From positions 1-21,376 of the IMG/VR virus record IMGVR_UViG_3300011436_000009: 21,376 nt of DNA. One strand, written 5' to 3'. The notes under the pieces are model-generated. The model was given only the letters and a program-made list of their open reading frames with translations. It did not search any database and was not told where the DNA came from. The DNA is from a virus. Position 1 is the first letter of the stretch, and the number at the start of each line of letters is the position of its first letter. The position numbers and the translations under genes are program-made. This document shows, piece after piece, positions 2,067 to 20,106 of this stretch.

Positions 2067-2192
2067 ATGACCACTGAGCGCGTGCGTCGCCTGCAAGTCC
2101 AACTGGGTGGGACCGTGTGGCACCATTCTGGCGGGCCCTATTTATGGCGTATTGACGCGGGGCGCGTCCGCCGCATTAAGTGCATGTCCTGA
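2067..2192 (+). CDS. Possible 41-aa plus-strand ORF ahead of the lipoprotein gene
   Basis: A short open frame whose ATG lies 30 bases from the divergent zinc-ribbon start. Its TGA runs into the lipoprotein gene's Shine-Dalgarno (gap to the next ATG is 11 bases). The product is basic, with a plausible WHHSGGPYLWRIDAGRVRRI segment and about 70% G/C in third positions. There is no Shine-Dalgarno and no recognised family, and other frames are also open. It could instead be untranslated leader. Confidence 0.25.
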   Translation: MTTERVRRLQVQLGGTVWHHSGGPYLWRIDAGRVRRIKCMS

Positions 2193-2198
2193 AGGAGG
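2152..2198 (+). promoter_or_regulatory. Candidate promoter and strong Shine-Dalgarno of the lipoprotein gene
   Basis: TTGACG at 2152-2157 is a good -35 match. After 18 bases TTAAGT (2176-2181) is a weak -10 (three of six). AGGAGG at 2193-2198 lies five bases before the ATG at 2204 and is close to ideal. The AT-richer patch just upstream (around 2140-2150) is unusual for this region. The -10 is the weak part of the prediction. Confidence 0.35.
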
Positions 2199-2203
2199 AC
2201 TGA

Positions 2204-2611
2204 ATGACCTTGAAATCGGGCTTGGTTTGCATGCTTGCTGCGTGCATGTCGGTGAGCTTGGCGGATTGCGGAGGTATAGTGGGCACAAGCTCACACGGCT
2301 CTTCTGGATCCGGGAACGGTCAGGGTGGTCAGGTCGGGTTTTCGGCGTCCGACTCGACATCCTCGTCGTCTGGCGTTGAGTCTTCTACCTCTAGCAGCGG
2401 AAGCGGTGCCTCATCGACATCGAGCGGAATGCCCTGTGACGCTGGCACATGCAGCCACTGGACAGATTGCCCAACAAACATTCCGGAATGCATTCGGCCA
2501 GCGTGTAAACTCGGATGCTGTGCTGTAGAAAACGCGCCCAACGGCAGCCTTTGCACCGACAATGGTTCGCCGTCTGGCATGGGAATTTGCTTTGACGGCA
2601 CTTGCCAGTAG
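2204..2611 (+). CDS. Secreted Cys-rich lipoprotein (135 aa), Polyangia-type, carried as a moron
   Basis: Signal peptide region at residues 1-21 (MTLKSGLVCMLAACMSVSLAD). Two lipobox-like sites are visible: LAAC ending at C14, a perfect box but a short signal, and LADC ending at C22, a better length but with an unusual Asp at -1. Residues about 23-75 are a Gly/Ser linker, and residues about 76-135 hold about ten cysteines in spacings such as C-DAGTC, DC-PTNIPEC, C-KLGCC and CFDGTC. Signal plus Ser/Gly linker plus Cys-rich module is the usual build of cell-surface lipoproteins in Polyangia. The gene is plus-strand, against the tail operon, has its own strong Shine-Dalgarno, and its stop abuts the minus-strand virion gene's stop with no gap. 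Base composition is lower in GC than its neighbours. It probably modifies the lysogen surface; that role is inferred. Confidence 0.85.
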   Translation: MTLKSGLVCMLAACMSVSLADCGGIVGTSSHGSSGSGNGQGGQVGFSASDSTSSSSGVESSTSSSGSGASSTSSGMPCDAGTCSHWTDCPTNIPECIRPACKLGCCAVENAPNGSLCTDNGSPSGMGICFDGTCQ

Positions 2612-3262
2612 TCAGCCAGTGCCCTTGTCTTGCGCTGTCGAAGTGATCGTATAAGTCGCTCCGACAACGAGTACAGCCTGTGAGTTCGCGCCCGCCTCGC
2701 CATCGAAGCGAATGCTATACATGTACCTTGACCTGTCGATCGTCGAAGCAAGCCCTGACACAGTAATTCCGTGGTACTGCTCGTAAGCGGCAGCGCTTGC
2801 CGCCGGGTCGGTCAGCGACCCGAGAGTCGACACGGTGCCGTCATTGAGATCCCGACGCAGGACCGAGACGAGCGGTTTTGTGGCCGGCAAGTTCCCGTCA
2901 ACTGCTGGCGAGATGTAGACCGTGACTGACGATAGAACATTGCCATGAGGGACTCGGATCGCTGCCCCTATCGACTCGCTAACAGCAACGTTTGCTGGCA
3001 GCCCACCCTTCGATGACGTGCCTACAATGTCAAACGCATCTGTATCGACTGTGCGAGTGACAGATGAGGACGCATAGGCAAGCGTGCCGTCTACGCGCAG
3101 GCCAGCGTTTCCGATCTCGATGGCAGACGTCGGCAAGTACGTCCCACCCGCCGCTCCATCGATGGCCTGCGAGATTGCCGTGCGCCAATAGTTGAGCGTG
3201 GCAGCCGTGATGGTGGACAGCTTGGCCGTGAACGCGAGGGCGGGAGTGAGTGAAAAGGTCAT
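2612..3262 (-). CDS. Fibre/receptor-region virion protein (216 aa)
   Basis: No catalytic motif is visible. The N-terminus is a helix (AKLSTITAATLNYWRTAISQAIDG) followed by AGGTYLPTSAIEIGNAGLRVDG, a build typical of phage fibre or virion proteins that begin with a short attachment helix. The rest is beta-rich, Ser/Thr/Val/Gly-rich sequence with little charge, ending in a strand-like QAVLVVGATYTITS. It is the last virion gene of the tail cluster, nine bases after the larger fibre-like gene, where phages usually place receptor-binding proteins. AGGA lies upstream of the ATG at 3262. GC is somewhat lower than in the baseplate genes, as is common for exchanged fibre modules. The receptor role is inferred from position. 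Confidence 0.75.
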   Translation of the reverse strand: MTFSLTPALAFTAKLSTITAATLNYWRTAISQAIDGAAGGTYLPTSAIEIGNAGLRVDGTLAYASSSVTRTVDTDAFDIVGTSSKGGLPANVAVSESIGAAIRVPHGNVLSSVTVYISPAVDGNLPATKPLVSVLRRDLNDGTVSTLGSLTDPAASAAAYEQYHGITVSGLASTIDRSRYMYSIRFDGEAGANSQAVLVVGATYTITSTAQDKGTG

Positions 3263-3271
3263 GCAGTTGTC

Positions 3272-4333
3272 CTATGGTGTCGGCACAAAGCCGAAACCGT
3301 GCTCGAGGTTGGCGACGCCCTGTTGCTCACCCGTCGGCGCCGTGGGCGCGGCCGCAGCAATGGCGTTGAGAAACGCGACGATTGCCGCAGGAAGCGGCAA
3401 CGGTGCCGCCATGGTGTTCGTGTTGTCCGCTCCGCCGTGGACCGCTGGGCTTCCAAGCTTCACCCGGTGCGCCTCGTAGACGCGCTCGCGTAGGTCGGCC
3501 TTCATGACGATCGCTTCGCCGAGCGTCTTCGCCTTCGCGGTCAAAGGCGCGTTGTAACCGTCGTCGTTCTGGTGCCATGTGCCGCCGCCTGTACCAGCGA
3601 CAAGGTGGCCCATCATCGCGTCATACAGGTCATTCAGGTCGGCGATCGAAGCGTCGACAGCCCCTACTACAGCCTCGCGCGTTGTAACGTTCGTGGTGTC
3701 CGCGGCAGTATGGGTGTCCGCACTGGTCTTGGCGATGTGCGCAAGGTACGCGGTGCGCAGAGCGGTGACGTCGGTCGCGAAGTCCACATCGAGCGTGCCG
3801 GCTGCGGTGCTCACGCCGACCAACGCGGCTACCGCTGCTACCACCGCGCTGTCGAGGATGCACACGCGGGAGATGTCGGTGAGCGGGTCGACAAGCTCAG
3901 CGCTGCGCACCGTGGCGTTGACAGCGATCAGCCGAAGCGTAGCGCCGTCGCCGCGCACCGTGCGGATAGGAAGATCCATGCTCTGCCCGACGTACACCGA
4001 GCCATCGACAGAGCTTTCAACGATGCGCTGCGGTTGCCCTACAGGGTCGTCTGCATGCGCTCCGCCGGTGCCGTCGATGATGCGTACGACCGAAGCCCTG
4101 ACGCCGTACACGCCGGCCACGTCGGGCGTGAACACGGTGCTCGTGTCGTCGAGCGTGGGGATGATGCGGTTGCCGTCCACGTCGAGGATGAAGCCGATTG
4201 GGATGGCCGAGCCGTCGGGCACCGAGAGCACCTCGAACTCACCGACACGCCCAGCGTCCTGCCCTGTGATGTCGAGCGTCACCTCGGCAGCTGCCGTGGT
4301 CGCTGTAGGGCTTGTGGTGATCGTGACAGCCAT
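3272..4333 (-). CDS. Fibre-like virion protein with N-terminal Ig-like region (353 aa)
   Basis: Residues about 15-85 look like an Ig-like beta-sandwich (VTLDITG, GEFEVLS, DVAGVYGVRASVVRI). Residues about 105-145 hold further strands. Residues about 165-310 contain two copies of a motif of the form H...H-x2-AD-x-TN: one at about 199-215 (HIAKTSADTHTAADTTN), the other at about 289-306 (HRVKLGSPAVHGGADNTN). They are joined by a helical, Asp-rich segment. The C-terminus is hydrophobic and Ala/Pro-rich (APLPLPAAIVAFLNAI). The ATG at 4333 has GGAAG five bases upstream and follows the gpI homologue by one base, so this is the expected fibre position after gpI of Mu-like phages. No similarity to the Mu tail fibre S was recognised. 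Confidence 0.8.
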   Translation of the reverse strand: MAVTITTSPTATTAAAEVTLDITGQDAGRVGEFEVLSVPDGSAIPIGFILDVDGNRIIPTLDDTSTVFTPDVAGVYGVRASVVRIIDGTGGAHADDPVGQPQRIVESSVDGSVYVGQSMDLPIRTVRGDGATLRLIAVNATVRSAELVDPLTDISRVCILDSAVVAAVAALVGVSTAAGTLDVDFATDVTALRTAYLAHIAKTSADTHTAADTTNVTTREAVVGAVDASIADLNDLYDAMMGHLVAGTGGGTWHQNDDGYNAPLTAKAKTLGEAIVMKADLRERVYEAHRVKLGSPAVHGGADNTNTMAAPLPLPAAIVAFLNAIAAAAPTAPTGEQQGVANLEHGFGFVPTP

Positions 4334-4334
4334 G

Positions 4335-4991
4335 TCAGCTTCCGAGCAGCGTCACGTCGACGATACCGATCTCCACCACCCAGCCGCCCTCGTCGGTGCC
4401 GATCTGGTAGCCCATCCACGCCGGGATCATCGCATCCAGCATCTCGGCCGCGCGTGCCAGCAGAGCGTCGAAGGCGATGTCATCGAGGCCGAGCCGCTGG
4501 GTGCGCACAGCGATGAGCGCGCGGTTGGACGTCCACTCGAAGCCAGGCGGGCCGGGGTTGACGCCGGGCCAGTAGGTCACCTCATCTGCCACCGTCGGGC
4601 CGAGCACGCCGAGGAAGTGCGACCCGAGGAGCGCCGCCATCGCGTCGTAAATATCGCTGACGGTGTTGGCGATGATGCCGCGGAACTTCGCAGCAACACG
4701 CCTGCGTCGGTCTTGCACCGAGTCGGTCGGCGTCGGGCGCAGTCGGCACGCCGCTTCCCACGTGGTCAACGTCTCCAGCATCTTGCTGGGCACGAGCTGG
4801 TTGCGCAGCCGGCCGTTGAGGCGCCAGATCCATGCGAGCGCGAGAGCATGGGCGTAGGCCTCCGCGTAGACGGCCGAGTTCTCGGAGACGTCGAAACCCT
4901 TGTCGAGCGCGCGAAGCATCGCGTTGTGCTCGATGACGATCGGGTTCGCCCCGCCGCCGAACCGACGGGGGAACGGATTCCGACCGAACAT
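4335..4991 (-). CDS. Baseplate/tail protein of the Mu gp48 (gpI, DUF2313) type (218 aa)
   Basis: In Mu-like phages this protein caps the outer baseplate wedge and connects to the fibres. The diagnostic stretch is at residues about 70-105 (LETLTTWEAACRLRP...DRRRRVAAKFRG): the WE...L.P...RR.AV.A segment of this family, followed by a helix and the ALLGSHF turn. A second basic half has RTQRLGLDDIAFDALLARAA. The usual length is about 180-220 aa, which fits. ATG at 4991 is preferred over GTG at 4994 because AGGTGG (4998-5003, minus strand) is six bases from the ATG. The stop of the upstream gene overlaps as TGATG. The order J, accessory, accessory, I agrees with a Mu-type baseplate operon. Confidence 0.85.
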   Translation of the reverse strand: MFGRNPFPRRFGGGANPIVIEHNAMLRALDKGFDVSENSAVYAEAYAHALALAWIWRLNGRLRNQLVPSKMLETLTTWEAACRLRPTPTDSVQDRRRRVAAKFRGIIANTVSDIYDAMAALLGSHFLGVLGPTVADEVTYWPGVNPGPPGFEWTSNRALIAVRTQRLGLDDIAFDALLARAAEMLDAMIPAWMGYQIGTDEGGWVVEIGIVDVTLLGS

Positions 4992-5446
4992 CACGCCCCA
5001 CCTGCCGGTGAGTCACACTTGACCCATGCGTGATGGGTCAGTTTTGACCCACGGGTGAAAGTTGACCCATTCCGCAGGATTCGGTTGGCTGCTACCTCAA
5101 TCGGGCCCCGGATTGAAGCCCGGGGTGGGCATACCTCACGGAATACGGGCACCCCCCGGATCCGACCGAGTTCCCAACCCCCCGAAGGGGGGAAGGGGGG
5201 GCTCCCTTCGGATCCGGGTCTCATCCCTGATCCGGATCTTATCTGGATCAGGTAGAGATCGCGCGGGCGAGGGCAATCGACGATGGCTGAACAGATCACG
5301 GTGATGTGGGGCGGGGTCGAACGGACCGTTTCGGCATGAGGCTCCGGCGGCTTTCGCACCCGCGCTCGCCCGATGGGGATCACGTTCGGCGGCTGCGGCA
5401 CCTCCCTGTCGAGGTCGGCCTGCGAGAAGGCTCTCTCTGCGCTCAC
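4991..5446 (-). CDS. Unknown baseplate-operon protein with a hairpin-derived C-terminal half (151 aa)
   Basis: The GTG at 5446 overlaps the upstream stop as GTGA, and its TGA overlaps the gpI homologue's start, so both ends are coupled as elsewhere in the operon. Residues 1-65 use normal GC-rich codons and look like a genuine Pro/Arg-rich protein (VPQPPNVIPIGRARVRKPPE, then a hydrophobic HITVICSAIVDC). From about residue 66 to 143 the sequence is encoded by four hairpins (5020-5252). Codon use there changes, with ATA, AGA, GGA and TCA appearing, and the peptide becomes Gly/Pro/Arg-rich with no domain. Either a repeat inserted in frame and was kept, or the gene really ends earlier and the rest is a non-coding spacer that happens to be open. 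No family recognised. Confidence 0.5.
   Translation of the reverse strand: MSAERAFSQADLDREVPQPPNVIPIGRARVRKPPEPHAETVRSTPPHITVICSAIVDCPRPRDLYLIQIRSGSGMRPGSEGSPPFPPSGGWELGRIRGVPVFREVCPPRASIRGPIEVAANRILRNGSTFTRGSKLTHHAWVKCDSPAGGA
5020..5040. repeat. Inverted repeat with extra TGACCCA copies nearby
   Basis: TGACCCAT (5020-5027) and ATGGGTCA (5033-5040) form 8-bp arms around a 5-base loop. TGACCCA recurs at 5045-5051 and TGACCCAT at 5063-5070, so four copies lie within 51 bases. This could be an operator array or a repeat element. Confidence 0.65.
5106..5125. repeat. Short inverted repeat CCCCGG...CCGGGG
   Basis: Six-bp arms at 5106-5111 and 5120-5125 enclose an ATTGAAGC loop. A GC-rich stem around an ATTGAA-type loop is the form of REP-like palindromes found in many high-GC genomes. 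That link is by analogy only. Confidence 0.55.
5155..5218. repeat. 64-base nested hairpin with a C6/G6 core
   Basis: The outer 10-bp arms are CCCGGATCCG (5155-5164) and CGGATCCGGG (5209-5218). Inside, CCC-AA-CCCCCC (5173-5183) and GGGGGG-AA-GGG (5187-5197) pair around GAA. On the minus-strand transcript the tip reads C6-UUC-G6, which can fold as a very stable C(UUCG)G tetraloop. No U-tract follows on either strand, so this is not a normal intrinsic terminator. Confidence 0.7.
5226..5252. repeat. Inverted repeat CCTGATCC...GGATCAGG
   Basis: Eight-bp arms at 5226-5233 and 5245-5252 have an 11-base loop that itself begins with GGATC, giving a GATCCGGATC palindrome at 5229-5238. It is the fourth hairpin of the block. 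Confidence 0.65.
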
Positions 5447-5940: not shown

Positions 5941-5942
5941 GG

Positions 5943-7439
5943 TCAGGCTCGAATCGCGAGGTGCTTCAGCACGAGCACCTTGGGCGGGTCCGCAGTGGTT
6001 GCGGGCACGCCCGGTGAACTGCGCGGCGTCGCTGTGCCCGTCTCGACGCGGAGCATGTATTCAAGCCCGGCGAGCTCATCGTACTGGTTGGTGACGGCAG
6101 CTTGGAGACGCGAGGTCAGGTCAGCCATGTCCTGCACGTCAGGGCTCGGGTGACGGCGCGCGAGCGGGAGGATGTCCGTGCTCGTCGTCTTCTCGCCGGG
6201 GCCGAGCTTGCGCATCTCGGCAAGGATCGTAGCTGCGTAGCCGACGAGGTTGACCGCGCCCGCGCTTACGTAGGGCTCAAGCGTGGCGCCGTCGGTGGGG
6301 TCGAATCCCACGGCGCCCTGTACCAGGGACGTCCACGCCCCAGCGACGCCACCGATAGAACCGGTGATCACGTACTCGCGCATCACAGGCTCGTCGGGAT
6401 CTGTCACGTTGTTCCACAGCCCGATGTGGTTGCCCACGTTGGGCGTCGCTGTGCTGTCGACGGTGAGCACGCCGGTCTGTGTGTTGTACGCCGTAACCTT
6501 CGTGTCCTCAGCTGGCCAAGGCACACCGTCAAGGAAGCCGCCCCCAGCTCCTCCCGCACTCTGCGGCAGAGCGAGCTGAGCCTTGAACACAACGTCGACG
6601 TATTGCGGCGTCACGGTGGTCACGTTGCGCTTCTGCTGACCCGGCATCACGGCGTCGAGCGCGGAGCCGACCAGTGCGATTGTCGTGGCGCTCAGCGTGC
6701 GGTCGCCCGTGTTCTTGACGATGGTCACGCCGTACGAAGCCGGCCCCTGCTCAGCCATGTATACATACGCCGCGCTCACCGCGCTGCTCGCGTTCTCCGC
6801 GGTCTCGACCACGAAGGCCCAGTTGCCGCCGACGCTCGGGAAGCTCAGCCGGCGGAGCAACCGCTCACGCAGCGTCTCGTCGTCGTCCGCCTCGGTGCCG
6901 TCCTCGATGCCGCCGACGCCGGCTGTGCAGATCCGCCGGAGCGCACCGATCGCAGCGCTGTCCCACGAGAGCTGTGTCCCCTCGTCCTGGTTGCCCGCCT
7001 CGCCGCCGACGAGCGCGATGACCTGAACCGCGGCACCGGTAACGTAGCTGCCCGCGGTGATCGTCTGGTACTGCGAGCCGTTCGGAGCCGTGCTTTGGAA
7101 GCCGGCAGGGATGTTGACGACGCCGGTGCAAACGATTGTGACCGGGCCGGCAGCGAACGCCGCGGGCCTGCGCGTGACGCCGAACACACCGGCGAGCGTG
7201 TCGAGCGCGTCGCCCGTTGCAGTGAGCGGGTTCGAGTCCGCGAGCGCGAGCTGGTTGTTCGCGATGGCGACGCTCACGCGATCCGCGTAAGCCTTCGCCC
7301 GATACCAGTGATCGCTCCCCTCGAGGAGGTTGATGTCGATCCCACGACGCGCGTAGCTGTACCTGAGAGCGCGCAGGATCGTGTTGAGCACGTCCTCAGG
7401 CGTCGGGTACTGCGCGTCCTGAACGCTGGGAAGTGCCAT
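5943..7439 (-). CDS. Baseplate wedge protein, Mu gp47 / P2 gpJ-like (498 aa)
   Basis: A core wedge component that links the central hub to the baseplate periphery in contractile tails. Family signatures are clear: the N-terminal helix pair (residues about 20-95); the beta region VNIPAGFQSTAPNGSQYQT at 108-126 (the IPaG...G..Y.T motif of Baseplate_J); GGEAGNQDEGT at 145-155; and GGIEDGTEADDDETLRERLL at about 176-195 (the GG.e.E.DE.LR.R motif). It is longer than Mu gp47 (about 360 aa) because residues about 290-390 carry an extra beta-rich insert (GGFLDGVPWPAEDTKVTAYN and on). The start overlaps the stop of the wedge gene (TAATG). Order W, J, accessory, I is as in Mu-like phages. Confidence 0.95.
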   Translation of the reverse strand: MALPSVQDAQYPTPEDVLNTILRALRYSYARRGIDINLLEGSDHWYRAKAYADRVSVAIANNQLALADSNPLTATGDALDTLAGVFGVTRRPAAFAAGPVTIVCTGVVNIPAGFQSTAPNGSQYQTITAGSYVTGAAVQVIALVGGEAGNQDEGTQLSWDSAAIGALRRICTAGVGGIEDGTEADDDETLRERLLRRLSFPSVGGNWAFVVETAENASSAVSAAYVYMAEQGPASYGVTIVKNTGDRTLSATTIALVGSALDAVMPGQQKRNVTTVTPQYVDVVFKAQLALPQSAGGAGGGFLDGVPWPAEDTKVTAYNTQTGVLTVDSTATPNVGNHIGLWNNVTDPDEPVMREYVITGSIGGVAGAWTSLVQGAVGFDPTDGATLEPYVSAGAVNLVGYAATILAEMRKLGPGEKTTSTDILPLARRHPSPDVQDMADLTSRLQAAVTNQYDELAGLEYMLRVETGTATPRSSPGVPATTADPPKVLVLKHLAIRA

Positions 7440-8852: not shown

Positions 8853-8856
8853 GGTG

Positions 8857-9186
8857 TCAGTCGAGCGGGCAAGTGGGGAGCTCAGGGATCGGCGGGAACA
8901 GATCCGGAATGGCCGGGAAGTCGGGCGGGAAAACGGGCGCGCCAGGCGGCACAACGTTGGTGCTGATCCCGATGTTGAAGCTCAGATCAGGCAGCGGAGG
9001 AATCAGATCCGGGATGGCGGGCGGGAAGCCAGGCGGGAACGATGGGTCCTGACTACCGGCGATGCTGATTGGAATGCCGAAGTCGAACGACAGATCAGGC
9101 AGCGGAGGAATCAGATCCGGAATGGCCGGGGGGAAAGCGGGCGGGAAGGCGGGCGACGTGATCGCCGGGATGTTGCACGCGCTCAT
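8857..9186 (-). CDS. Proline-rich 36-residue tandem-repeat protein next to the spike (109 aa)
   Basis: After a 12-residue head (MSACNIPAITSP) the whole protein is three tandem repeats: residues 13-48, 49-84 and 85-109 (the last one is truncated). Each begins FPP.FPPAIPDLIPPLPDLS. The first two are near identical for 20 residues and then diverge. About one residue in three is proline; charges are nearly all acidic (Asp), and there is one Cys near each end (C4, C106). It is coded three bases after the gp45-like spike, with GGTGTGAG before the ATG. The regular PPxxPDL pattern suggests an extended polyproline rod or a flexible tether rather than an enzyme. No family is recognised, and no Mu gene exists at this site. 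Confidence 0.8.
   Translation of the reverse strand: MSACNIPAITSPAFPPAFPPAIPDLIPPLPDLSFDFGIPISIAGSQDPSFPPGFPPAIPDLIPPLPDLSFNIGISTNVVPPGAPVFPPDFPAIPDLFPPIPELPTCPLD
8983..9120. repeat. 30-bp perfect direct repeat, period 108 bp
   Basis: The 30 bases at 8983-9012 are repeated exactly at 9091-9120; both start CAGATCAGGCAGCGGAGG. The 108-bp period corresponds to the 36-residue protein repeat. A third, diverged copy lies at about 8886-8925. The exact identity implies recent duplication or ongoing recombination. Confidence 0.85.
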
Positions 9187-9189
9187 CGC

Positions 9190-9858: not shown

Positions 9859-10349
9859 TATAGGCTCCCCCAAATTGTGGCCCACTGGTAGGCCTTGTCG
9901 CTGCGTCGCTGCACGTAAAACGCCACGTCTCGAAAGATGAGCTTGAGGTACGCGTCGTTCTTGAGCGCCGCTCTCATGTCGGCGTAGTTGAGCGCGGAGA
10001 GCGCTGGAATCAGCAGCTTCACGTTGGCGTCAACCACGTCGAGAGTGATCGAGCCTGAGTGATTGGCGCTGTGCGCGCCCACCGTGAAGTACTGGTTCGC
10101 GCTCGTGTCGGTTCGCTGCGATACGTACCAGTCGTACTCGTCAACACCTGCAACCGAATCGGCCGCGAACGAGTTGCACGTGGCGCTGAACGGGATGCCC
10201 GACGCCATTATCGACGTGAACGCGAGCGAGCCAGAGAAGCCGCCGGTGTTGAGCTTCGCGTACGGCCACACCGGGAAGCCATCAAGATCGAGGGCGGCAC
10301 CAACGAGCGCGAACCCGGGGCGGAAGTCCTGGTAGCGTGTGAAGATCAT
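9858..10349 (-). CDS. Unknown protein between baseplate hub and spike (163 aa)
   Basis: ATG at 10349 is chosen because the longer frame (to 10445) would cover the whole 5' part of a plus-strand gene. It begins MIFTRYQDFRPGFALVGAAL and continues with mixed beta and turn sequence (VWPYAKLNTGGFSGSLAF, QYFTVGAHSANHSGSITLDV) and a C-terminal helix (YADMRAALKNDAYLKLIFRDVAFYVQRRS). No Shine-Dalgarno precedes it, and the start is only 17 bases from a divergent plus-strand start. Mu has no gene between gp44 (hub) and gp45 (spike), so this is an insertion. A hub accessory role is inferred from position only. Confidence 0.75.
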   Translation of the reverse strand: MIFTRYQDFRPGFALVGAALDLDGFPVWPYAKLNTGGFSGSLAFTSIMASGIPFSATCNSFAADSVAGVDEYDWYVSQRTDTSANQYFTVGAHSANHSGSITLDVVDANVKLLIPALSALNYADMRAALKNDAYLKLIFRDVAFYVQRRSDKAYQWATIWGSL

Positions 10350-10351
10350 TG

Positions 10352-10366
10352 TGCTAAGGTGTGGGC
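10352..10366 (+). promoter_or_regulatory. Candidate extended -10 / Shine-Dalgarno overlap before the 10367 gene
   Basis: The whole intergenic space (10350-10366) holds TGTGCTAAGGTGTGGGC. TAAGGTG is a usable Shine-Dalgarno six bases from the ATG, and TGC-TAAGGT also reads as an extended -10, which would make the transcript leaderless. The divergent minus gene starts at 10349, so any -35 would lie inside that gene. Confidence 0.3.
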
Positions 10367-10561
10367 ATGTCGCCCAACTATCTATTTTCTCTACGAAACC
10401 CCAATGTGCCGCTTGGAATGTTGCCGCAGGCCGACCCGACTGCACGATTTCGTGACGCGCTGCGATCGCAAGGAATCAGCAGGTCTGATGCCTTGGCGAC
10501 CGACGCTGGCCTTACTGCTTTTGGCATTGGAATGATACGCATCGCCTACGCCTTCAACTAG
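10367..10561 (+). CDS. Plus-strand small cargo protein (64 aa)
   Basis: Not a recognised family. The ATG at 10367 is preferred to GTG at 10361 on Shine-Dalgarno spacing. The product has a hydrophobic-aromatic N-terminus (MSPNYLFSLRNPNVPLGMLP), a central DALRSQGISRSDALATDAGL that resembles a short helix-turn-helix segment but is too short to call one, and a hydrophobic C-terminus (AFGIGMIRIAYAF). GC is lower than in the flanking baseplate genes. It fills the gap between the hub and the 163-aa gene: it starts divergently 17 bases from the latter and its stop overlaps the hub stop tail-to-tail (10554-10561). It is one of the counter-oriented cargo genes. Confidence 0.6.
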   Translation: MSPNYLFSLRNPNVPLGMLPQADPTARFRDALRSQGISRSDALATDAGLTAFGIGMIRIAYAFN

Positions 10562-11738: not shown

Positions 11739-12625
11739 GTGTAGTACGTCATCGTCGTTCCGCGGCTGACGATGGGCAACCGAAGCGCGTGGAGGTTTAG
11801 CCCCATCACATCAACGAGAGAGTTGTTGACCGAAGCGGCAAACGCGTCGAGCGTGGCATCCTGACGCAAGACCTTCTTCGATGTTGGCCTGTTCGCGGCG
11901 GCGACCTTGGCGCTCTTGTCCTTGATCGAGTTCCAAAACGCGATGGTGTTGTCGTACGCTGCAATTGCCGCCGGGTCGTTGAGCGAGTCGATCGCGTCGA
12001 TCATGCCGCCCGCAATGCCCATGAGCTGGTCAAGCTGCCCGGATACCGTAAGGCTCGCCGAGAAGAGTCCGCTCTTGACGGCGTTCCACGCATCGAGGAG
12101 CGATGTGTACCCCTTGCCGGTGGGGAACGTTACGCCGAACTCGGCCGCGCTCGTGTCAGCCGCGGCAGCGAGCGTGCCGGCGTCGATGTCAGGAGGCAGT
12201 AGCCCCTGCGGTCCGGCAGGGTCGTCGAGTGTCTCAGAAAAAGAGACATCAACGATGATGCCACTGGCGGTCGAGGATCGAATTTCGAACTTCCCGCCAA
12301 CCACACACGCGAGCACGGGGCCGAGCAGCGGGTGAATCAGCGTGTCCGCGGAACCGTCGAGGAGCGCCGTCCTCCAGTCTTCCCATGTGTCAGGGAAATG
12401 GTTCGGCTCATCGAGCAATCCATTCAGGAAAAAAAGGCGAACGGTGAACCTGAAACTGGTCCTTCCCGTCCAATCGTGCATCTCGCCGTCGACATACGGG
12501 ACGCCCCGCGCCGCTTGGTCGTGAGACCATTCGACGGTGATGATGTCGTACGGCGGCGCGTCGAGTCCGCGCCACTGCAATCGAGGCAGATCCCTGATGA
12601 TCTGCATGGGCGAGTTCGACGACAT
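11735..12625 (-). CDS. DNA circulation / tail protein, Mu gp43 (gpN)-like (296 aa)
   Basis: The N-terminal DNA_circ_N domain is visible at residues about 10-100: LPRLQWRGLDAPPYDIITVE, then GRTSFRFTVRLFFLNGLLDE with its fold of alternating strands and the final GPVLACVVGGKFEIR. In Mu this protein is a tail/baseplate component placed between the tape measure and the hub; the name DNA circulation comes from early genetics. The C-terminal 140 residues are helical (LLDAWNAVKSGLFSASLTVS, LMGIAGGMIDAIDSLNDPAA), also as in the family. Mu gpN is about 490 aa, so this one is short. It is coded directly upstream of the hub with an ATGA overlap. Confidence 0.8.
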   Translation of the reverse strand: MSSNSPMQIIRDLPRLQWRGLDAPPYDIITVEWSHDQAARGVPYVDGEMHDWTGRTSFRFTVRLFFLNGLLDEPNHFPDTWEDWRTALLDGSADTLIHPLLGPVLACVVGGKFEIRSSTASGIIVDVSFSETLDDPAGPQGLLPPDIDAGTLAAAADTSAAEFGVTFPTGKGYTSLLDAWNAVKSGLFSASLTVSGQLDQLMGIAGGMIDAIDSLNDPAAIAAYDNTIAFWNSIKDKSAKVAAANRPTSKKVLRQDATLDAFAASVNNSLVDVMGLNLHALRLPIVSRGTTMTYYT

Positions 12626-12626
12626 G

Positions 12627-12716
12627 TCACACGGCCATTTTGTGCAAGATGGTTTTCATGCAAGTCACCCAACTCTCAACAGACTCAGTACCTTTCATGT
12701 AATTGCACTGTTCCAT
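12627..12716 (-). CDS. Possible 29-aa peptide between tape measure and gpN homologue
   Basis: An ATG at 12716 opens a 29-codon frame (MEQCNYMKGTESVESW...) whose TGA ends one base before the gpN homologue's ATG. There is no clear Shine-Dalgarno. The gap 12626-12730 is markedly lower in GC than either neighbour. A 37-codon plus-strand frame (12624-12737), rich in His, competes for the same bases, and its ending would mimic the tail-to-tail pattern seen elsewhere. Third-position GC favours the minus strand slightly. Confidence 0.3.
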   Translation of the reverse strand: MEQCNYMKGTESVESWVTCMKTILHKMAV

Positions 12717-12730
12717 GATGGTGCCATGGT

Positions 12731-14905
12731 CTACTGAGTTCCGCCGACGAGCGGCGCGCCTGTGATGCTCGGCTGGCCGCCCGCCGTGGCGATCTTATCC
12801 GCGGCAGCGCCGAACTTGTCGGCCGCCGCGATCATCTTTTCGGCCGCCGCCTTTGACGCGTTGTCAATGTCTCCACCCTTCGCGTAAGCGCCGGTGCCCT
12901 GCTCGAACTCGTGGCGTTCCTTGGTCTGCGCCGATGTCTCCAACGAACGATCGGACATCTCGTCGAAGAATCCGGTCTTTTCTCCTGACGCGACCCGTTT
13001 GACGATGCCCCTGGCATATCCTTCGGTGAAGGACTTATCTTCCGAAGGGTCGGCCGACATATACCGCTCTGTGAATCTTTTAGCGCGTTCCTGATCTGTC
13101 ACGGCCGTCGTCATGTTCTCGTGCAGAGCCTTTGCCTCGAGGCTTTCCGAGTAGAGAGACTTCGCTTTTGCTTGGTTCTCCGGAGACAACTTGGCAAACG
13201 CCGCCTGTCCAGCGCGTGTGTTGATGCCGGCTCCGCCGAGCATTGTAGAGAGTTCCTCGTTTACTCTCTTAGCCTTTTCGCCAGCTTCCTTCCGCCCCTC
13301 CATGGCGTCGTCCTCGACGAATCCAAAGCCCTTGGCGGCACCTCCAATGTACTCCAAGGCCTTGACGACGGCGTTTACAGCGGCTGTTAGACCATCGAAG
13401 GCGGCCTTGTTTGTGGCGATCTTCGCGACGAGATCGGCAATGGCCGGGGCAAACTTTTCGCCCACGGTAGCCTTGATCTTCTCCCACGCTGCCGTGACCT
13501 TGGCGCTTGACGACGACTGTGCCTGTGCGGCGTCTTTGACTACCTCAGACCAGGCACCAGGGGCCTCTATCGCCTTGTCGAGGGCCGCTTTCAGGGCATC
13601 AACACCGGCAGCCGTCTTCTCCTGCTTCGTGCCAGAAGCCGCTCCCTGCGCATCAGTGAACGCCGAAATCAGTGGGCTGACGGCGCGCATCCCTTCGCGG
13701 CCAAAGATGCCGCCGAGAGCTACCTTGTTCCCGCCCGACTTCGATATGATGTCGACAAGGATGTCCTTGATGTCCCTCGTCTTCGAGTTGCCAGAGCCTT
13801 TCTGAAAGACCAGGTTTTGCCCGAGCTTGTTTATCTTTTTTTGCTTCTCGGCCGATGTCAGTTCAGACAACATTGCCTCAACTGCCGTCGATGCAACGTC
13901 CCTGTCCCCCGTGGCAGACATGGCGATCTGGCTTAGCCCACCAAGCGTCTTGAGCCCAGAGAGGCCTGAGAATCCAAACTGCTTTGCAGCCGCGCCGGTT
14001 TTTGCAAACTTCCCGGCAGCGTCCCTTAGCTCAAAGGCCCCCTCTTTGCCCTGGAAGGTAAGGGCAGCAAGGGCTTCTCGCATGTCGTCAATGCTCTTGA
14101 CGTCAAACTTCTGGGAGATGTCCGCCGCGGCGCTAGCGATGTCTTGTACATCAGCGCCAGACGCGCTCGCGGTCGTGGCAAACGTGCCAGAGAACCTGCG
14201 CGCCGCAGCAAGATCGCCCGTCTTGGCGACGAACCCACCGATCCCCTCGGCGATGTCCGTCGCCTTGATGCCAGGTGTGGCGATGGCCGTCGCCTCGAAT
14301 TCCTTGCGCAGCTCCGTCGCATCGACGCCACGCTGGCCCGCCCCACGCGAGTTGATGCTGATGCGGTTGGCGATGTCCTGTAGTTTCATCGAGTCGCGAG
14401 CCGCGGCGCCGATAAGACCCGCGCCGGCCAAGCCAGCGCCTACTCCAACCTTGGCGGCCCCCATGCCGAGCGTCATAGCGGCTCCGCCGAACGTGCCGAC
14501 GACTTTCTTGCTGAACGCCTGGCGGCGCTTGTCTGCGGCGGCCTCCTGCTTCGCGAGCTCCTTTTCGTAGCGCCGGCGGATCTGGTAGACGTGCTCGACG
14601 GCGCGCGCCTTCTCCCGCGCGGCGCGCTTTGCTTCGCGGATCTCGGTGTCAGCGGCCTTCTTCGCCGCGCGCTCCTGGTCGGCCGCGACCTTCTTCGCGA
14701 GCCGTTCGATGTCGTTGATGGGGCGCTTTGCTTCGCGCCCGTAGGTCTGCGCTGAGCGCGTAGCCTGCCCTGCACCAGCCACGCTCGCGCGGTACATCCC
14801 CGCGGTAGCCTTCTCGCTTGCGCGAGCCTCGGCCGTGATGGAGCGGAACTCCGCCGGTACCTCGCCCTTGCCGGCCACGACGAACTGGTAACGGATCTCG
14901 GGCAT
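12731..14905 (-). CDS. Tail tape measure protein (724 aa)
   Basis: Sets tail length and fills the tube before DNA ejection. Residues about 1-60 are a small beta/helix head (YQFVVAGKGEVPAEFRSITA). About 60-135 is a strongly charged Ala/Lys/Arg/Glu coiled coil (RAAREKARAVEHVYQIRRRY, EKELAKQEAAADKRR). About 135-172 is Gly/Ala-rich and hydrophobic (GMGAAKVGVGAGLAGAGLIG). About 172-430 corresponds to the TP901-type core (LQDIANRISINSRGAGQRGV, DVQDIASAAADISQKFDVKS, VALGGIFGREGMRAVSPLIS). The rest is helical with Ala/Lys-rich spacers. By the rule of about 0.15 nm per residue it would give a tail near 110 nm. The start has only a weak ribosome site, and a divergent plus-strand gene begins 45 bases away. 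It is the longest gene of the window, in the usual place after the chaperone genes. Confidence 0.95.
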   Translation of the reverse strand: MPEIRYQFVVAGKGEVPAEFRSITAEARASEKATAGMYRASVAGAGQATRSAQTYGREAKRPINDIERLAKKVAADQERAAKKAADTEIREAKRAAREKARAVEHVYQIRRRYEKELAKQEAAADKRRQAFSKKVVGTFGGAAMTLGMGAAKVGVGAGLAGAGLIGAAARDSMKLQDIANRISINSRGAGQRGVDATELRKEFEATAIATPGIKATDIAEGIGGFVAKTGDLAAARRFSGTFATTASASGADVQDIASAAADISQKFDVKSIDDMREALAALTFQGKEGAFELRDAAGKFAKTGAAAKQFGFSGLSGLKTLGGLSQIAMSATGDRDVASTAVEAMLSELTSAEKQKKINKLGQNLVFQKGSGNSKTRDIKDILVDIISKSGGNKVALGGIFGREGMRAVSPLISAFTDAQGAASGTKQEKTAAGVDALKAALDKAIEAPGAWSEVVKDAAQAQSSSSAKVTAAWEKIKATVGEKFAPAIADLVAKIATNKAAFDGLTAAVNAVVKALEYIGGAAKGFGFVEDDAMEGRKEAGEKAKRVNEELSTMLGGAGINTRAGQAAFAKLSPENQAKAKSLYSESLEAKALHENMTTAVTDQERAKRFTERYMSADPSEDKSFTEGYARGIVKRVASGEKTGFFDEMSDRSLETSAQTKERHEFEQGTGAYAKGGDIDNASKAAAEKMIAAADKFGAAADKIATAGGQPSITGAPLVGGTQ

Positions 14906-14950
14906 GGCGGATCAGTCTGAAAGTGCTACTGGAGAAGACGGAGGAATCAG

Positions 14951-15166
14951 ATGACAGACCGACTAAAGGGCGCTTGGGTAGCGTTTGATCATGACATCCG
15001 CGAAGACGACGCGAAGTGCCTGATCGACGCCATCAAGATGTTGCGCGGGGTGCTGGAGGTGAAAACAGAAGTCTCGAGCTCCGATGACTGGATCGCAGAG
15101 TCGAGGATCCGTCACGAACTCGGTAAAAAACTGTTGGATATAGTCTACCCAAAGAGGAAGACTTGA
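14951..15166 (+). CDS. Plus-strand conserved phage accessory protein (71 aa)
   Basis: Has GGAGG six bases before the ATG at 14951. The sequence (RLKGAWVAFDHDIREDDAKC, then LIDAIKMLRGVLEVKTEVSS and IRHELGKKLLDIV) resembles a small family I know from many phages, with the pattern RLKG...F..DIREDDA...I.AI.ML.GV..V, which looks like one ferredoxin/ACT-like alpha-beta fold. Recognition is from memory; no function is known. It lies divergent to the tape measure (45 bases) and is followed in overlap by a tiny membrane protein gene. It is part of the counter-oriented cargo set. The minus-strand frame over the same bases is a shadow with no motif. Confidence 0.8.
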   Translation: MTDRLKGAWVAFDHDIREDDAKCLIDAIKMLRGVLEVKTEVSSSDDWIAESRIRHELGKKLLDIVYPKRKT

Positions 15167-15249
15167 CCCCAACGGAGCCCGCCGACCCAGCCTGTCTGGG
15201 TTGCCTTATTCTGGCCGTGGTCGTCGTTATCGCGGTCCTGTTCCGCTAG
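15163..15249 (+). CDS. Tiny single-pass membrane protein (28 aa), TTG start
   Basis: Too short for usual gene finders. The TTG at 15163 overlaps the stop of the 71-aa gene as TTGA, and GAGGA lies four to five bases before it. The peptide is MTPTEPADPACLGC followed by LILAVVVVIAVLF and a final Arg, i.e. a polar head and one hydrophobic helix with a CLGC pair at the membrane border. Its TAG (15247-15249) interlocks with the opposite stop of the HK97-gp10-like gene in a shared CTAG. The hydrophobicity and both exact overlaps argue for a real gene, although the rare start and small size keep this tentative. Confidence 0.5.
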   Translation: MTPTEPADPACLGCLILAVVVVIAVLFR

Positions 15250-15581
15250 AACGTCATGCCGTCGAAGAAGAACTCCATCTCCGTTGCGGCGTGGTCAGCG
15301 GCCTCGTCAATTACCATGTAGCCGCGGGTGTTTACGTATGACGCGTAGGGCATCTCGGCGACCAGATCGACGCGCGTCTCGTCGCTGCTCGTCTCGGGCG
15401 CGGTTGCCTTGGTCGAGCGCTCGAGGTCGCCGGTGCGGTTCTGGTAGGTGTGTCCGCGCTGCTCTTCTGTGGCCGCGTCCGACGCGATCCTGTGCATCTC
15501 GCGTGGGATCTCGTGCTCAAGATGACGGATAGCGGCGCGCTCGGCGGCGATCACCTCGGATATGTCGAGGCCTGGCTTCAT
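15246..15581 (-). CDS. HK97-gp10-like tail/head-tail completion protein (111 aa)
   Basis: ATG at 15581 is chosen because it overlaps the stop of the preceding gene (ATGA, 15578-15581), as elsewhere in this operon; the frame is open further to 15704 but that part overlaps the 66-aa gene throughout. The HK97-gp10 signature is clear: a helical N-terminal half (EVIAAERAAIRHLEHEIPRE), then HTYQNRTGDLERSTKA (the ..TG.L..S....), then DLVAEMPYASYVNTRGYMVI (the ...A.YA.YVE.Gt pattern). In other phages this protein takes part in tail completion or head-tail joining. Its place here, next to the tape measure, is unusual for a Mu-type order but seen in long-tailed phages generally. Confidence 0.8.
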   Translation of the reverse strand: MKPGLDISEVIAAERAAIRHLEHEIPREMHRIASDAATEEQRGHTYQNRTGDLERSTKATAPETSSDETRVDLVAEMPYASYVNTRGYMVIDEAADHAATEMEFFFDGMTF

Positions 15582-15778
15582 GTTCGAGGCAGACGCCACG
15601 GTTGACAGGACGGGCTTCGTCTCCTGCCACGACGGACAATCTTTCCAGAAGAAACCATCGTCAACGCTGTTTTGATGAGCGCAGTAGGCAATTCGTGCGG
15701 ACACACGCCGGATGGCCGCGACGCGAGCAGCACGATGTTTTCTTCCGGGGTCTTGTCTATCCTGATGGTGACCTTCAC
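15578..15778 (-). CDS. Small unknown protein upstream of the gp10-like gene (66 aa)
   Basis: The GTG at 15778 overlaps the stop of the 250-aa chaperone-like gene (GTGA) and its TGA overlaps the gp10-like start (ATGA), so it fits the coupled chain exactly at both ends. Sequence: KVTIRIDKTPEENIVLLASR is a plausible beta-alpha start, PSGVCPHELPTALIKTALTM follows, and the tail is very basic (KIVRRGRRRSPS). No family recognised. The competing longer start of the gp10-like frame covers the same bases. The exact overlaps are the main argument that this is the right reading. Confidence 0.6.
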   Translation of the reverse strand: MKVTIRIDKTPEENIVLLASRPSGVCPHELPTALIKTALTMVSSGKIVRRGRRRSPSCQPWRLPRT

Positions 15779-17108: not shown

Positions 17109-17111
17109 GTG

Positions 17112-17495: not shown

Positions 17496-17508
17496 GGCTA
17501 TCCCTCGT

Positions 17509-19050
17509 TCAGTAGGCGGGGCCCGCCTGGTTGATCTTGAAGTCGTCGAAGAGGTTGTGCCGCACCGGCTGCACCGTCGCGGTCGTGCCGAAGCCAGCAG
17601 AGCTGAGCTGGACCGAGATGCCACCGATCATCTCATCGAGCACGCTCGGGTCCAGGTAAGCCCTGCCGTTTTTGAACGGACCGGCCATGTCGGTCATCAC
17701 CTTGCCGACGAGATCGCGCATTGTCTGCGGCGTGTCGAAGCCCGCGATGGGGCGCCTACCCTGCGGCGGATCAGCCATCACGTTCGGCTGCCGCTGGGCG
17801 ATGTAGCGCTGCTCCACCTCCTCCCAGAAGGCGAAAGTAACGCTCGGGATGTGGCCTTCGCGCGCGCGATAGTCCTTGGTTGCCGAGGAGCCCGTCCATG
17901 AGCGGCTCGTAACGTCGCGCACGAGGTACGGAGTGCCATCGGTGCGGAACGACACCGGGGAGACGCCGTTGTTGATGTCCGCTGCTTGCTCCGTCGTCGT
18001 GGGTACGTCTGCCTTGGCGAACGGCGGAGGCACGAAGTACGGCGTGGTATCCGTGTTCGTGTAGCCGGCGAAGTTGTACGCGGCGTAGTTGACCTCTTGC
18101 GATCGCTTCATCGCGGCGTGGTGCGCAGCGATCATCGGTGGCGGCCAGTCGTTGTTCTCGACGCGGTAGAAGAACGCGTAGACGCTGTTCGCGACGCTCG
18201 ACGTCGCGACGCTGGTAGCCTGAGCCTGGGTGCAGTCGAGACCGATGATCACCGTTTGGTTCTTGCCGTTGACGGGAAGCGCCTGGGTCTTGATGAACGT
18301 GATGTACTCGCCGACTCCGTTGTCTGTCGCGGTGATGCCAGCCGCCGCTGTTGCCGCGAGCACGTGGTAAAAGAACGTCGAGCCGGTCAGCTCCGCGACC
18401 ACGTTGGTCACGTCGTCGGCGCCGGTGCCAGAGCTGACAGCGCCGACCGTGATCGTGGTGGCCACGCTCTTCTGATACGTCATGCGGACGCGGCCGAGTA
18501 TGAAGTCGCCTCGGGGCCCGAGCTGCGCGGCCGTGAGCGTTACGATATGCTCGCTGCCAACACCACCAATCGCAGCGCTGAATGGAAGGGAGGGGTCGGC
18601 CGTGGTCTTCGCCGCTACCGCAGCAGCCTGCACGACGGCTGTGTCTCCGCTCGCGATCGGAACGGTGAAACGGAAGCCGCCCCAGTCGATGAACAGGTTG
18701 GTCGCGTCGTTCGCAGCCGTCGCGAAGGTGTACGTTCGGGTCGCCGCCGTTGCCCCGCCGCCCTCGGCGACCACGCACACCGACACTGGACCGGTCGGAT
18801 CGATCAGCCTGTACGCGTAGTACATCCAACGAAGCTCGCTTCTTGCGCCGCACCGCGTCTCGGCGTCCTCGAGGCTCTGGATGGGCTGGCCGAGCGTCGC
18901 CGCGGACTCGGTGCCAGCAGACGTCTTGTTTCCGACGAGCACCACGGGGCGCACGTTCCCGGCACCGGTGCTGTCACCTTGGCCGAAACTGAATTCGCGA
19001 GCGATTCGAGGGATGGGGCTGTCGCCGATCCCTGTGAGCAGGAGCGTCAC
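17509..19050 (-). CDS. Contractile tail sheath protein, Mu gpL-like (513 aa)
   Basis: Forms the contractile outer tail. The GTG at 19050 follows GGAGGTGA at ideal spacing, and this site also forms the end of the previous gene (GTGA overlap). Residues about 15-60 carry the sheath head pattern (REFSFGQG, NVRPVVLVGNKTSAGTESA, QPIQSLEDAETRCGARSELR). A long beta-rich protruding domain follows at about 100-235. The C-terminal third is the conserved sheath core: DCTQAQATSV, VENNDWPPPMIAAHHAAMKR, DTTPYFVPPPF, DGTPYLVRDVTSRSWTGSSA, KDYRAREGHIPS and the final subunit-linking arm (LFDDFKINQAGPAY). Length agrees with Mu gpL (495 aa). The intact sheath shows that this is a contractile tail. Confidence 0.95.
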   Translation of the reverse strand: MTLLLTGIGDSPIPRIAREFSFGQGDSTGAGNVRPVVLVGNKTSAGTESAATLGQPIQSLEDAETRCGARSELRWMYYAYRLIDPTGPVSVCVVAEGGGATAATRTYTFATAANDATNLFIDWGGFRFTVPIASGDTAVVQAAAVAAKTTADPSLPFSAAIGGVGSEHIVTLTAAQLGPRGDFILGRVRMTYQKSVATTITVGAVSSGTGADDVTNVVAELTGSTFFYHVLAATAAAGITATDNGVGEYITFIKTQALPVNGKNQTVIIGLDCTQAQATSVATSSVANSVYAFFYRVENNDWPPPMIAAHHAAMKRSQEVNYAAYNFAGYTNTDTTPYFVPPPFAKADVPTTTEQAADINNGVSPVSFRTDGTPYLVRDVTSRSWTGSSATKDYRAREGHIPSVTFAFWEEVEQRYIAQRQPNVMADPPQGRRPIAGFDTPQTMRDLVGKVMTDMAGPFKNGRAYLDPSVLDEMIGGISVQLSSAGFGTTATVQPVRHNLFDDFKINQAGPAY

Positions 19051-19385
19051 TTGTCACCTCCGAGCGCCGTTGCCTTCTTTTTGAGATCGTGTTCGGCGTC
19101 GACGTGGCTGCGCGCGACGCACTCGGTGACCATCCTCAGGTGGCCGTGCTTGATGGCCGCCCGCAGGTCGATGTGGTCGACGATCACCTGCTTGACCGGT
19201 TTGTAGTGGTCGATGATGCCATCGACCTCCTCGGCCCCCTTGCCGTCGGTGCGCATCTTCGGCGCGTACTGCCAGCCGGCGTAGCGCGCGGGGGATGCGC
19301 TCGGGTTGTGCGGATCGGTCACGGGGAAGCCGCGCCCGTTCTCGTCGAAGACGCCCTCGACGAGCAGGAAGCGTTGCATGGGCAT
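19047..19385 (-). CDS. Small protein preceding the sheath, Mu gp38 (DUF2635) position (112 aa)
   Basis: ATG at 19385 has CGGAG seven bases upstream; a second ATG follows two codons later. The N-terminal VEGVFDENGRGFPVTDPHNP matches the short beta hairpin with G..V.DP found in the DUF2635 proteins coded just before the sheath in Mu-like phages. The rest differs: a helix DGIIDHYKPVKQVIVDHIDL followed by AAIKHGHLRMVTECVARS, a basic end and GGDK, about 50 residues longer than the Mu protein. Assignment rests mainly on position (it overlaps the sheath start) and on the hairpin. Function is not known even in Mu. Confidence 0.65.
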   Translation of the reverse strand: MPMQRFLLVEGVFDENGRGFPVTDPHNPSASPARYAGWQYAPKMRTDGKGAEEVDGIIDHYKPVKQVIVDHIDLRAAIKHGHLRMVTECVARSHVDAEHDLKKKATALGGDK

Positions 19386-19427
19386 GGTGTGCTCCGTGGC
19401 GCCGCGCTGGGCGCCGGGGTGGTGGTG

Positions 19428-19451
19428 TGCTATGGTCGAGAGGTCAGGAGG
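19428..19451 (+). promoter_or_regulatory. Candidate extended -10 and strong Shine-Dalgarno of the 19457 gene
   Basis: TGC-TATGGT at 19428-19436 reads as an extended -10. AGGAGG at 19446-19451 lies five bases before the ATG at 19457. The 71-base gap to the divergent minus gene (19385) leaves room for a full promoter, but I see no good -35. Confidence 0.35.
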
Positions 19452-19456
19452 AGAGA

Positions 19457-19672
19457 ATGACGTTTGACGTAGAGGCCGGGCGGCGTGTCATCAGAGAGGC
19501 CGAAGAGGTCGCCGACGACGTGGCCCCCGGCGCAGTTCACCCAGTGATTGACGCGCTTTCGGCATCGCTCGACGAGATCACGCGGCTCACGAACATGCTT
19601 CACGCCGTGCATATGGCGCTTCAGTGCCCGAAACTACGTCGTGAGCCTCAGCCAGAGGAGCCACGAACATGA
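19457..19672 (+). CDS. Plus-strand small helical protein (71 aa), Ea22-like pattern
   Basis: Strong Shine-Dalgarno (AGGAGG, five bases). The product is acidic and helical: VEAGRRVIREAEEVADDVAP, then VIDALSASLDEITRLTNMLH, a leucine-spaced helix, and a Pro/Glu tail. The VI.AL...LDEI.RL pattern resembles the coiled-coil part of lambda Ea22-type accessory proteins; that is a weak, pattern-only likeness. Its TGA overlaps the next gene's start. It belongs to the counter-oriented set and lies between the gp38-position gene and the 161-aa gene. Function unknown. Confidence 0.65.
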   Translation: MTFDVEAGRRVIREAEEVADDVAPGAVHPVIDALSASLDEITRLTNMLHAVHMALQCPKLRREPQPEEPRT

Positions 19673-20106
19673 TGGCTTTCATGCGTGGCGAACACGGCGC
19701 CTTCGAGCCGTGCGAGTGCCAAGGACACTCGATCTTCGTGATGCCGCCGGTGGAACGAGCGGAGGAGTCATTGGTCCCGCCAGAGCGAACGCTGACGCGG
19801 GCGGAGCGGCGTCGTGAGGCACGGTCCCGAACACGTAACTGGCAATGGGCCCCCGGTCGCCGTCGAGCACTTCGCATCTCGAAGACAGAGTTTGTCTTTC
19901 CAGAGGAAATCACGCTTCCAGAACCAATTCAGCTGCACGGGAGGTACTATCGCAATGGACCTCTCGATGTGGTTCTTTACTTGCGTGAGGGCGACGCTCC
20001 GACAGTGGCCGAGCTGAGGCAGATTGAAAGGGCCGTTCTCTCGCGAGGCAGCCAGAAACCTACAACGACAACCCCGACGGCCCCTTCTGCCACGCAGACC
20101 CGTTGA
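19669..20106 (+). CDS. Plus-strand protein of unknown function (145 aa)
   Basis: Starts in overlap with the 71-aa gene (ATGATG; either ATG is possible), with AGAGGAG about eight bases before. Residues about 10-35 contain a C-x-C-x-G-H cluster (EPCECQGHSIFVMPPVE), followed by a basic helix rich in Arg (TLTRAERRREARSRTRNWQW). A beta segment then a helix follow (EPIQLHGRYYRNGPLDVVLY, APTVAELRQIERAVLS). The end is Thr/Pro low complexity and overlaps the 3' end of the minus-strand 161-aa gene by 47 bases, the deepest convergent overlap in the window. Possibly a nucleic-acid-binding protein; no family recognised. Confidence 0.6.
   Translation: MMAFMRGEHGAFEPCECQGHSIFVMPPVERAEESLVPPERTLTRAERRREARSRTRNWQWAPGRRRALRISKTEFVFPEEITLPEPIQLHGRYYRNGPLDVVLYLREGDAPTVAELRQIERAVLSRGSQKPTTTTPTAPSATQTR

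Follow-up and report, generated by a model that had tools for sequence, protein, structure and literature searches.

The IMG/VR virus record IMGVR_UViG_3300011436_000009, which was analyzed over its whole length of 21,376 bases (referred to here as the window), carries a Mu-like contractile-tail operon on its minus strand and four plus-strand loci at the joints between the genes of that operon. We consider it likely that this is the late operon of a Mu-like-tailed phage in which small accessory cassettes were inserted in reverse, repeatedly and independently, with promoters of their own and under interference from late transcription. A single tail operon that carries a number of swappable morons in reverse orientation, of which three share a promoter-like motif, is a new arrangement of an otherwise familiar type of locus. 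The late genes follow the Mu-like order of sheath, tape measure, gpP-like hub, baseplate J, and Gp48-like genes, as judged from Pfam and PHROG matches. Late genes are denoted g and plus-strand open reading frames (ORFs) p, and their coordinates are given in Table 1.

Fourteen collinear relatives were recovered, and their late genes stand in the order of the window except for a swap of g3272 and g2612. Four IMG/VR relatives were reached through an alignment of two sequences, one being that of the Manatee Spring phage MW202476, a six-row alignment of J added G012, and a three-row sheath alignment led to nine further relatives. Queries with the single sheath or J protein against viral contigs retrieved no close relative, and a Methylocaldum match from one scan of genome contigs proved spurious. 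In the window (2612-4333, minus strand) g3272 precedes g2612, and relatives covering this region read g4335, g2612-like, g3272.

Reversed Cassettes at the Joints of the Tail Operon

The coordinates and junctions quoted in the preliminary description of this DNA were all exact when checked again. At joint D, the ORF at 2204-2611 ends immediately before g2612 (2612) with zero gap. At joint C, 10367-10561 overlaps the end of the hub gene (10554) by 8 bp, and at joint B, 15163-15249 has 4 bp in common with g15246. At joint A, the window contains two coupled reversed ORFs, the second of which (19669-20106) ends 47 bp inside g20060.

The same joints were compared across the relatives. Joint A (between g20060 and g19047; window 19386-20059) measures 8-27 bp in G001, G002, G004, G006, G008-G011, and L028; in G003 it spans about 160 bp and contains no reversed ORF. 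In G005 the joint is occupied by three coupled reversed ORFs that end 37 bp inside g20060, and in G007 by one reversed ORF that ends 52 bp inside it. The G007 ORF starts either at 3179 (103 amino acids, with a Shine-Dalgarno (SD) sequence) or at 3095 (75 amino acids, with the motif described below). The reversed joint-A proteins of the window, G005, and G007 are not homologous to one another. Joint B (from g15246 to the tape measure; window 14906-15245) is closed in G001-G009 and G011, that is, wherever it can be read. Joint C (from the hub gene to g9858; window 10350-10553) is likewise closed wherever readable, in eight relatives (G001-G004, G007, and G009-G011).

Further joints are filled in the relatives. 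At the joint of J and g5443, G007 has a reversed gene of 118 amino acids that matches phrog_5370 and has a 14-bp overlap, and after g3272 it has two reversed genes for exported proteins with a 4-bp overlap. Beside the g2612-like gene, there is a reversed matrixin metalloprotease in G003 (Pfam match above the cut-off; 4-bp overlap) and a reversed lipobox protein with a HELGH motif in G004 (13-bp overlap). A second reversed cassette of G005 is located upstream of g20060. Because joints B and C are closed, joint A is closed or differently filled, and further joints are filled in relatives, the reversed loci can be classed on comparative grounds as swappable, moron-like insertions.

The expectation that cargo would be present or absent at the joints while the virion genes stay collinear was borne out across the 14 relatives. 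On a tree of the sheath, three or more changes, placed on branches with strong support, are needed to account for the presence of reversed cargo; the window, G005, and G006 form a clade (support 100/98), and G006 is empty at joint A. Repeated acquisition in reverse, as initially proposed, is right for this lineage, with joints closed, filled, or swapped in the relatives. The tail-to-tail placement, which had been called unusual, is a matter of geometry: any insert reversed between two genes of the same direction must meet one of them tail to tail. Geometry does not dictate that all converging ends touch a late gene or run into it, and this is the informative part. Counted over all reversed cassettes, there are ten converging ends in five phages, and they vary between a gap of 0 bp and an overlap of 52 bp.

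Antisense ORFs opposite the proline-repeat gene (G001 49491-49826, G002 22724-23056, G004 20059-20316, and L019 9193-9501) were discounted as shadows of the repeat, and those opposite tape-measure genes cut off by a contig end (L023 6574-8186 and L026) as edge artefacts. G007 also contains a forward HNH/endonuclease VII-type gene between the tape measure and hub genes (L025 9878-10657, plus strand; phrog_1035, E 6e-26).

Coding Capacity of the Plus-strand ORFs

Three cassettes begin with a strong SD sequence, as previously described. The starts at 2204, 14951, and 19457 score 7.7, 5.5, and 6.7, respectively, and a score of at least 5 is reached at just 1.7% of the 288 plus-strand ATGs. Among late genes, the sheath alone scores this high; the separate gene at 849-1673 on the late strand does so too. 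The lengths of the plus ORFs are close to chance at joints A (P = 0.12), B (P = 0.10), and D (P = 0.06), and only that at joint C lies beyond chance (P = 0.0065). Alternative minus-strand ORFs inside the gaps of the window scored overall no better than the plus ORFs. The gaps have a GC content of 0.55-0.62, compared with a value of about 0.64 in the window, and their third-position GC is low. For g9858, a start at 10349 is more likely than one at 10445, so that p10367 probably falls within a gap of 204 bp rather than inside a gene.

As codon scores are weak and ORF length is near chance in three of the four gaps, comparison was needed to decide. Several of the ORFs are real genes. For p14951 this can be regarded as certain from its homologues, p2204, p19457, and p19669 are likely to be genes, and p2067 and p15163 are doubtful. 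It is unlikely that only some of the plus ORFs are genes and that the remainder is spacer or DNA decaying after recombination, with the mini-operon picture being in part an artefact of ORF finding. The near-chance lengths in gaps A, B, and D, the weak codon scores, and the lack of homologues for p19457, p19669, p10367, and p2067 would agree with this explanation, but it is opposed by the strong SD sequences at three starts, the shared motif with its consistent spacing, and the ATGA coupling. It is further opposed by the certain homology of p14951 and by the unrelated reversed genes at equivalent joints in the relatives, some of which have family matches.

A Shared Promoter-like Motif

When the regions upstream of the cassettes were compared by eye, a common motif was spotted, GCG-N13-GTGCTA-NN-G. 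It occurs exactly three times in the window, always on the plus strand and just upstream of p10367, p14951, and p19457, compared with 0.08 occurrences on average in shuffled sequence, a post hoc comparison given that the motif had been found in those very regions. Because the motif was derived from the window, an independent test had to be made outside it. When a matrix built from the three window sites was run on G007, the site before the reversed gene at the J/g5443 joint ranked first, and the site before the joint-A gene ranked third. In the window, G003, and G007, every TGCTANNGT is intergenic and oriented opposite to the late operon, whereas in the majority of the other relatives these matches fall within genes.

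The motif can be read as an extended -10 box (TGC-TATGGT). For the genes without an SD sequence (p10367 and both G007 genes), the motif ends 6-7 nucleotides before the ATG, a spacing that fits a leaderless transcript. For those with an SD sequence (p19457 and p14951), it ends about 20 nucleotides before the start. This coherence of spacing and SD sequence is the best evidence for p10367 as a gene and suggests that the cassettes have promoters of their own.

It is improbable that the GTGCTA motif belongs instead to the late strand, as an element before late-gene starts that would be read as CNNTAGCAC. The motif does abut a late-gene start codon in G003 and at joint C of the window (10349-10360). 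However, it lies anywhere from 0 to about 66 nucleotides away from the late start, in contrast to the 6-7 nucleotides, or about 20 with an SD sequence, that separate it from the cassette start. The extended -10 box reads in the direction of the cassette, and in G001 the motif is found 6 nucleotides before a forward gene without a divergent partner.

A fourth, weaker plus-strand match, TTGTCCTATGGT, is situated at the g3272/g2612 joint (3267-3278), where there is no cassette. One terminator-like hairpin follows p14951 (15183-15203).

Proteins Encoded by the Cassettes

The family of small phage proteins to which p14951 belongs is widespread: homologues are found in Brevundimonas phage Kabachok and in 12 IMG/VR viral loci, the latter with identities of 35-61%, and the loci of this family lie mostly within clusters of small genes. 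An AlphaFold model of the family (pLDDT 79, pTM 0.47) gave no convincing match in the PDB. Structure prediction gave no usable model for p19669, and searches with p10367 revealed no homologue. Among the cassette genes of G005, one has a match to phrog_19503 and a homologue (46%) in G002 that is located in the early region, upstream of the genes for terminase and portal, which indicates that part at least of the cargo comes from an early-gene pool. PADLOC gave no hit, and known defence systems are therefore not indicated.

The p2204 protein is predicted to be exported and consists of a signal peptide, a Ser/Gly-rich linker, and a Cys-rich C-terminal domain. No database match was found for it, but the same architecture recurs in one reversed gene of G007. 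Reversed genes for predicted exported proteins stand beside the fibre-like g2612 or g3272 in four phages. The homologues of g2612 have the N terminus in common and differ in the remainder, and neither Pfam nor PHROG gave a match for g2612. By a strict rule, a lipobox is present in 3 of 15 cassette proteins, compared with 3 of the 403 other genes (P = 7e-4); the three cassette proteins are encoded by reversed genes of G007 and G004. The rule excludes p2204, which together with the matrixin of G003 is a near miss. Ser/Gly linkers followed by Cys-rich domains are common in Myxococcota lipoproteins, and this style of protein is the sole hint that the host may belong to the Myxococcota. The gene at the g2612 position in G004 (L018 4144-5043, plus strand) contains many polyglycine runs, recalling polyglycine phage adhesins.

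Proposed Mechanism and Comparison with Known Systems

The sequences show that small accessory cassettes have been inserted in reverse at joints of the late operon, repeatedly and independently within the phage group, and that three cassettes of the window share a promoter-like site (GCG-N13-GTGC-TAnnG, of the extended -10 type). In the mechanism that we propose, this site would be a promoter, and the three cassettes would start either leaderless or with a strong SD sequence. The cassettes stop where the converging tail gene ends or within its final codons. Their transcription would take place early in infection, or in the lysogen if the phage is temperate, and would be turned down by transcriptional interference when late transcription runs through the cassettes from the opposite strand, in the manner of a multi-node noncontiguous operon. 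Opposite-strand genes nested within an operon, by which a noncontiguous operon is recognized, are present here. The cassette beside the variable fibre gene would supply an exported protein whose most plausible role is to modify the cell surface, as in superinfection exclusion. A more far-reaching version, which we put forward tentatively and regard as rather doubtful, has several dedicated docking joints and one promoter class, so that late transcription would silence the whole swappable early or lysogenic set at once, and the fibre-side joint would be reserved for exported surface proteins matched to host recognition.

Several observations weigh against the proposed mechanism. The codon-usage scores are weak for most plus ORFs, and the motif statistics within the window are post hoc. 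The motif is absent before p2204 and in G005, where promoters of other types may take its place; by eye, TTGACA-N17-TTTAGT is found in G004 and TTGACG upstream of p2204. In G003, the best matrix site is reversed and lies at the start of the tape measure gene (L016 7082-7097, minus strand) with no reversed ORF recognized behind it, which suggests a relic or a bare antisense promoter. The earlier claim that the cassettes have their own promoters gains support from the shared motif, whereas a scan for the standard sigma-70 consensus found nothing at the cassettes. Terminators are not enriched, their total does not exceed that of shuffled sequences, and none is convincing for the cassettes. Finally, the designation as a prophage is not supported, as no lysogeny gene was recognized in the window or its near relatives, and a search for tyrosine integrase, rve transposase, and resolvase in the window and relatives, all of which are fragments, found only a tyrosine integrase in the distant G012 (L058, a 39-kb record). 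Since G012 has this integrase, part at least of the wider phage group may be temperate.

Prophage genes that run antisense to lytic genes and have their own promoters have already been described as typical of moron and accessory loci, and STMMW_20121 of ST64B is antisense to lytic genes (PMC7067206). Like the loci of the window, morons are extra genes in an otherwise syntenic late operon that vary between relatives and are sometimes antisense with their own promoter. The variable morons of P22-like phages lie beside the tailspike gene, for example the ant moron (PMC2629481), but they occupy one site in the morphogenetic cluster, whereas the moron-like cassettes of the window are found reversed at several joints of one tail operon, with a common promoter-like motif in three. 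The tha/ith pair of phage 80alpha is a measured noncontiguous operon and a precedent for the regulatory logic (PMC11087260). As in the window, where the promoters are predicted, an opposite-strand gene with its own promoter is nested in an operon. However, 80alpha has few, single antisense genes with measured transcripts, and the window has multiple exchangeable cassettes, with predicted transcripts, nested among tail genes.

The old/tin hotspot of P2-like phages, which are also contractile-tailed, has varying accessory content at a fixed place between conserved genes (PMC9122126). In contrast to the cassettes, it is situated between gpA and gpQ near cos, outside the tail operon, and carries defence systems, for which PADLOC found nothing in the window. 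In T5 and related phages, exclusion lipoproteins (Llp and Cor) are encoded beside receptor-binding genes (PMC9586334). They are small exported proteins, as p2204 is predicted to be, and the neighbour of p2204 is g2612, a fibre-like gene with a variable C terminus and a candidate for receptor binding. No sequence relation of p2204 to Llp or Cor was found, and p2204 differs in its Ser/Gly linker and Cys-rich domain, its failure under the strict lipobox rule, and its convergence with the fibre-like gene.

It is very improbable that the main role of the reversed transcripts is to brake tail genes by antisense, as was suggested earlier, with the proteins being secondary. In favour of this idea, read-through would be antisense to a late gene at each converging end, as all these ends touch or enter one, and a prophage antisense RNA opposite a tailspike gene causes superinfection exclusion (PMC7067206). 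Support for the idea does not go past geometry, however. The tail operon is the same in relatives without cassettes, and what the relatives exchange is the content of the cassettes, with conserved protein families among it, and not merely a transcript. In 80alpha, the interference from the antisense promoter was minor beside the effect of the protein (PMC11087260).

Morons are usually described singly, site by site, and the motif and joints reported here provide a sequence handle for accessory genes in unannotated phages. Given reversed cassettes with putative promoters of their own, it can also be tested whether accessory genes are switched off by late transcription itself. The exported proteins recurring beside the variable fibre gene are candidate exclusion factors in phages without a studied host.

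Other Features of the Window

Table 1. Cassette ORFs, promoter-like motifs, and late genes of the window
Feature	Position	Strand	Remarks
p2067, 41-amino acid ORF upstream of p2204	2067-2192	+	No SD; poor codon score; no homologue
p2204, 135 amino acids, joint-D reversed cassette	2204-2611	+	Perfect SD AAGGAGGA
p10367, 64-amino acid ORF, joint-C reversed cassette	10367-10561	+	Motif 6 nucleotides before ATG, fits leaderless start
p14951, 71 amino acids, conserved small phage protein family, joint-B reversed cassette	14951-15166	+	SD GGAGGA
p15163, 28 amino acids, TTG start, one predicted membrane segment	15163-15249	+	Overlaps terminator-like hairpin 15183-15203
p19457, 71 amino acids, first gene of joint-A reversed cassette	19457-19672	+	SD AGGAGG; no homologue
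p19669, 145 amino acids, second joint-A gene	19669-20106	+	ATGA overlap with p19457; no homologue
Motif GCG-N13-GTGCTAAGG before p10367	10335-10359	+	
Motif GCG-N13-GTGCTACTG before p14951	14907-14931	+	
Motif GCG-N13-GTGCTATGG before p19457	19411-19435	+	
g2612, fibre-like late gene	2612-3262	-	Alignment: conserved N terminus, rest variable; converges with p2204
Gp48-like	4335-4994	-	Just below Pfam cut-off (34.2 vs 37.4 bits)
Baseplate J	5943-7439	-	
Baseplate hub (gpP-like)	10554-11738	-	phrog_177, E 2e-24; converges with p10367
Hub protein	11735-12625	-	
Tape measure	12731-14905	-	phrog_794, E 7e-24; divergent from p14951
g15246, late gene	15246-15704	-	phrog_5377; homologues in relatives; converges with joint-B cassette
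Sheath	17509-19050	-	
g19047, late gene upstream of sheath	19047-19385	-	Homologues in G005, G007, L028, G009; divergent from p19457
g20060, late gene	20060-20545	-	Converges with joint-A cassette in window, G005, G007

No tRNA and no known structural RNA family was found in the window. In the baseplate region, the window encodes a proline-rich repeat protein (8857-9186, minus strand) with units IPDLIPPLPDLSF, and proline-repeat genes occur at the equivalent position in relatives including G002, G004, and G007. The minus-strand locus at 849-1730, which lies beyond joint D and takes in the late-strand gene at 849-1673, encodes a coiled-coil-like protein that matches phrog_8119 (unknown function), and has a good SD sequence, unlike most late genes.

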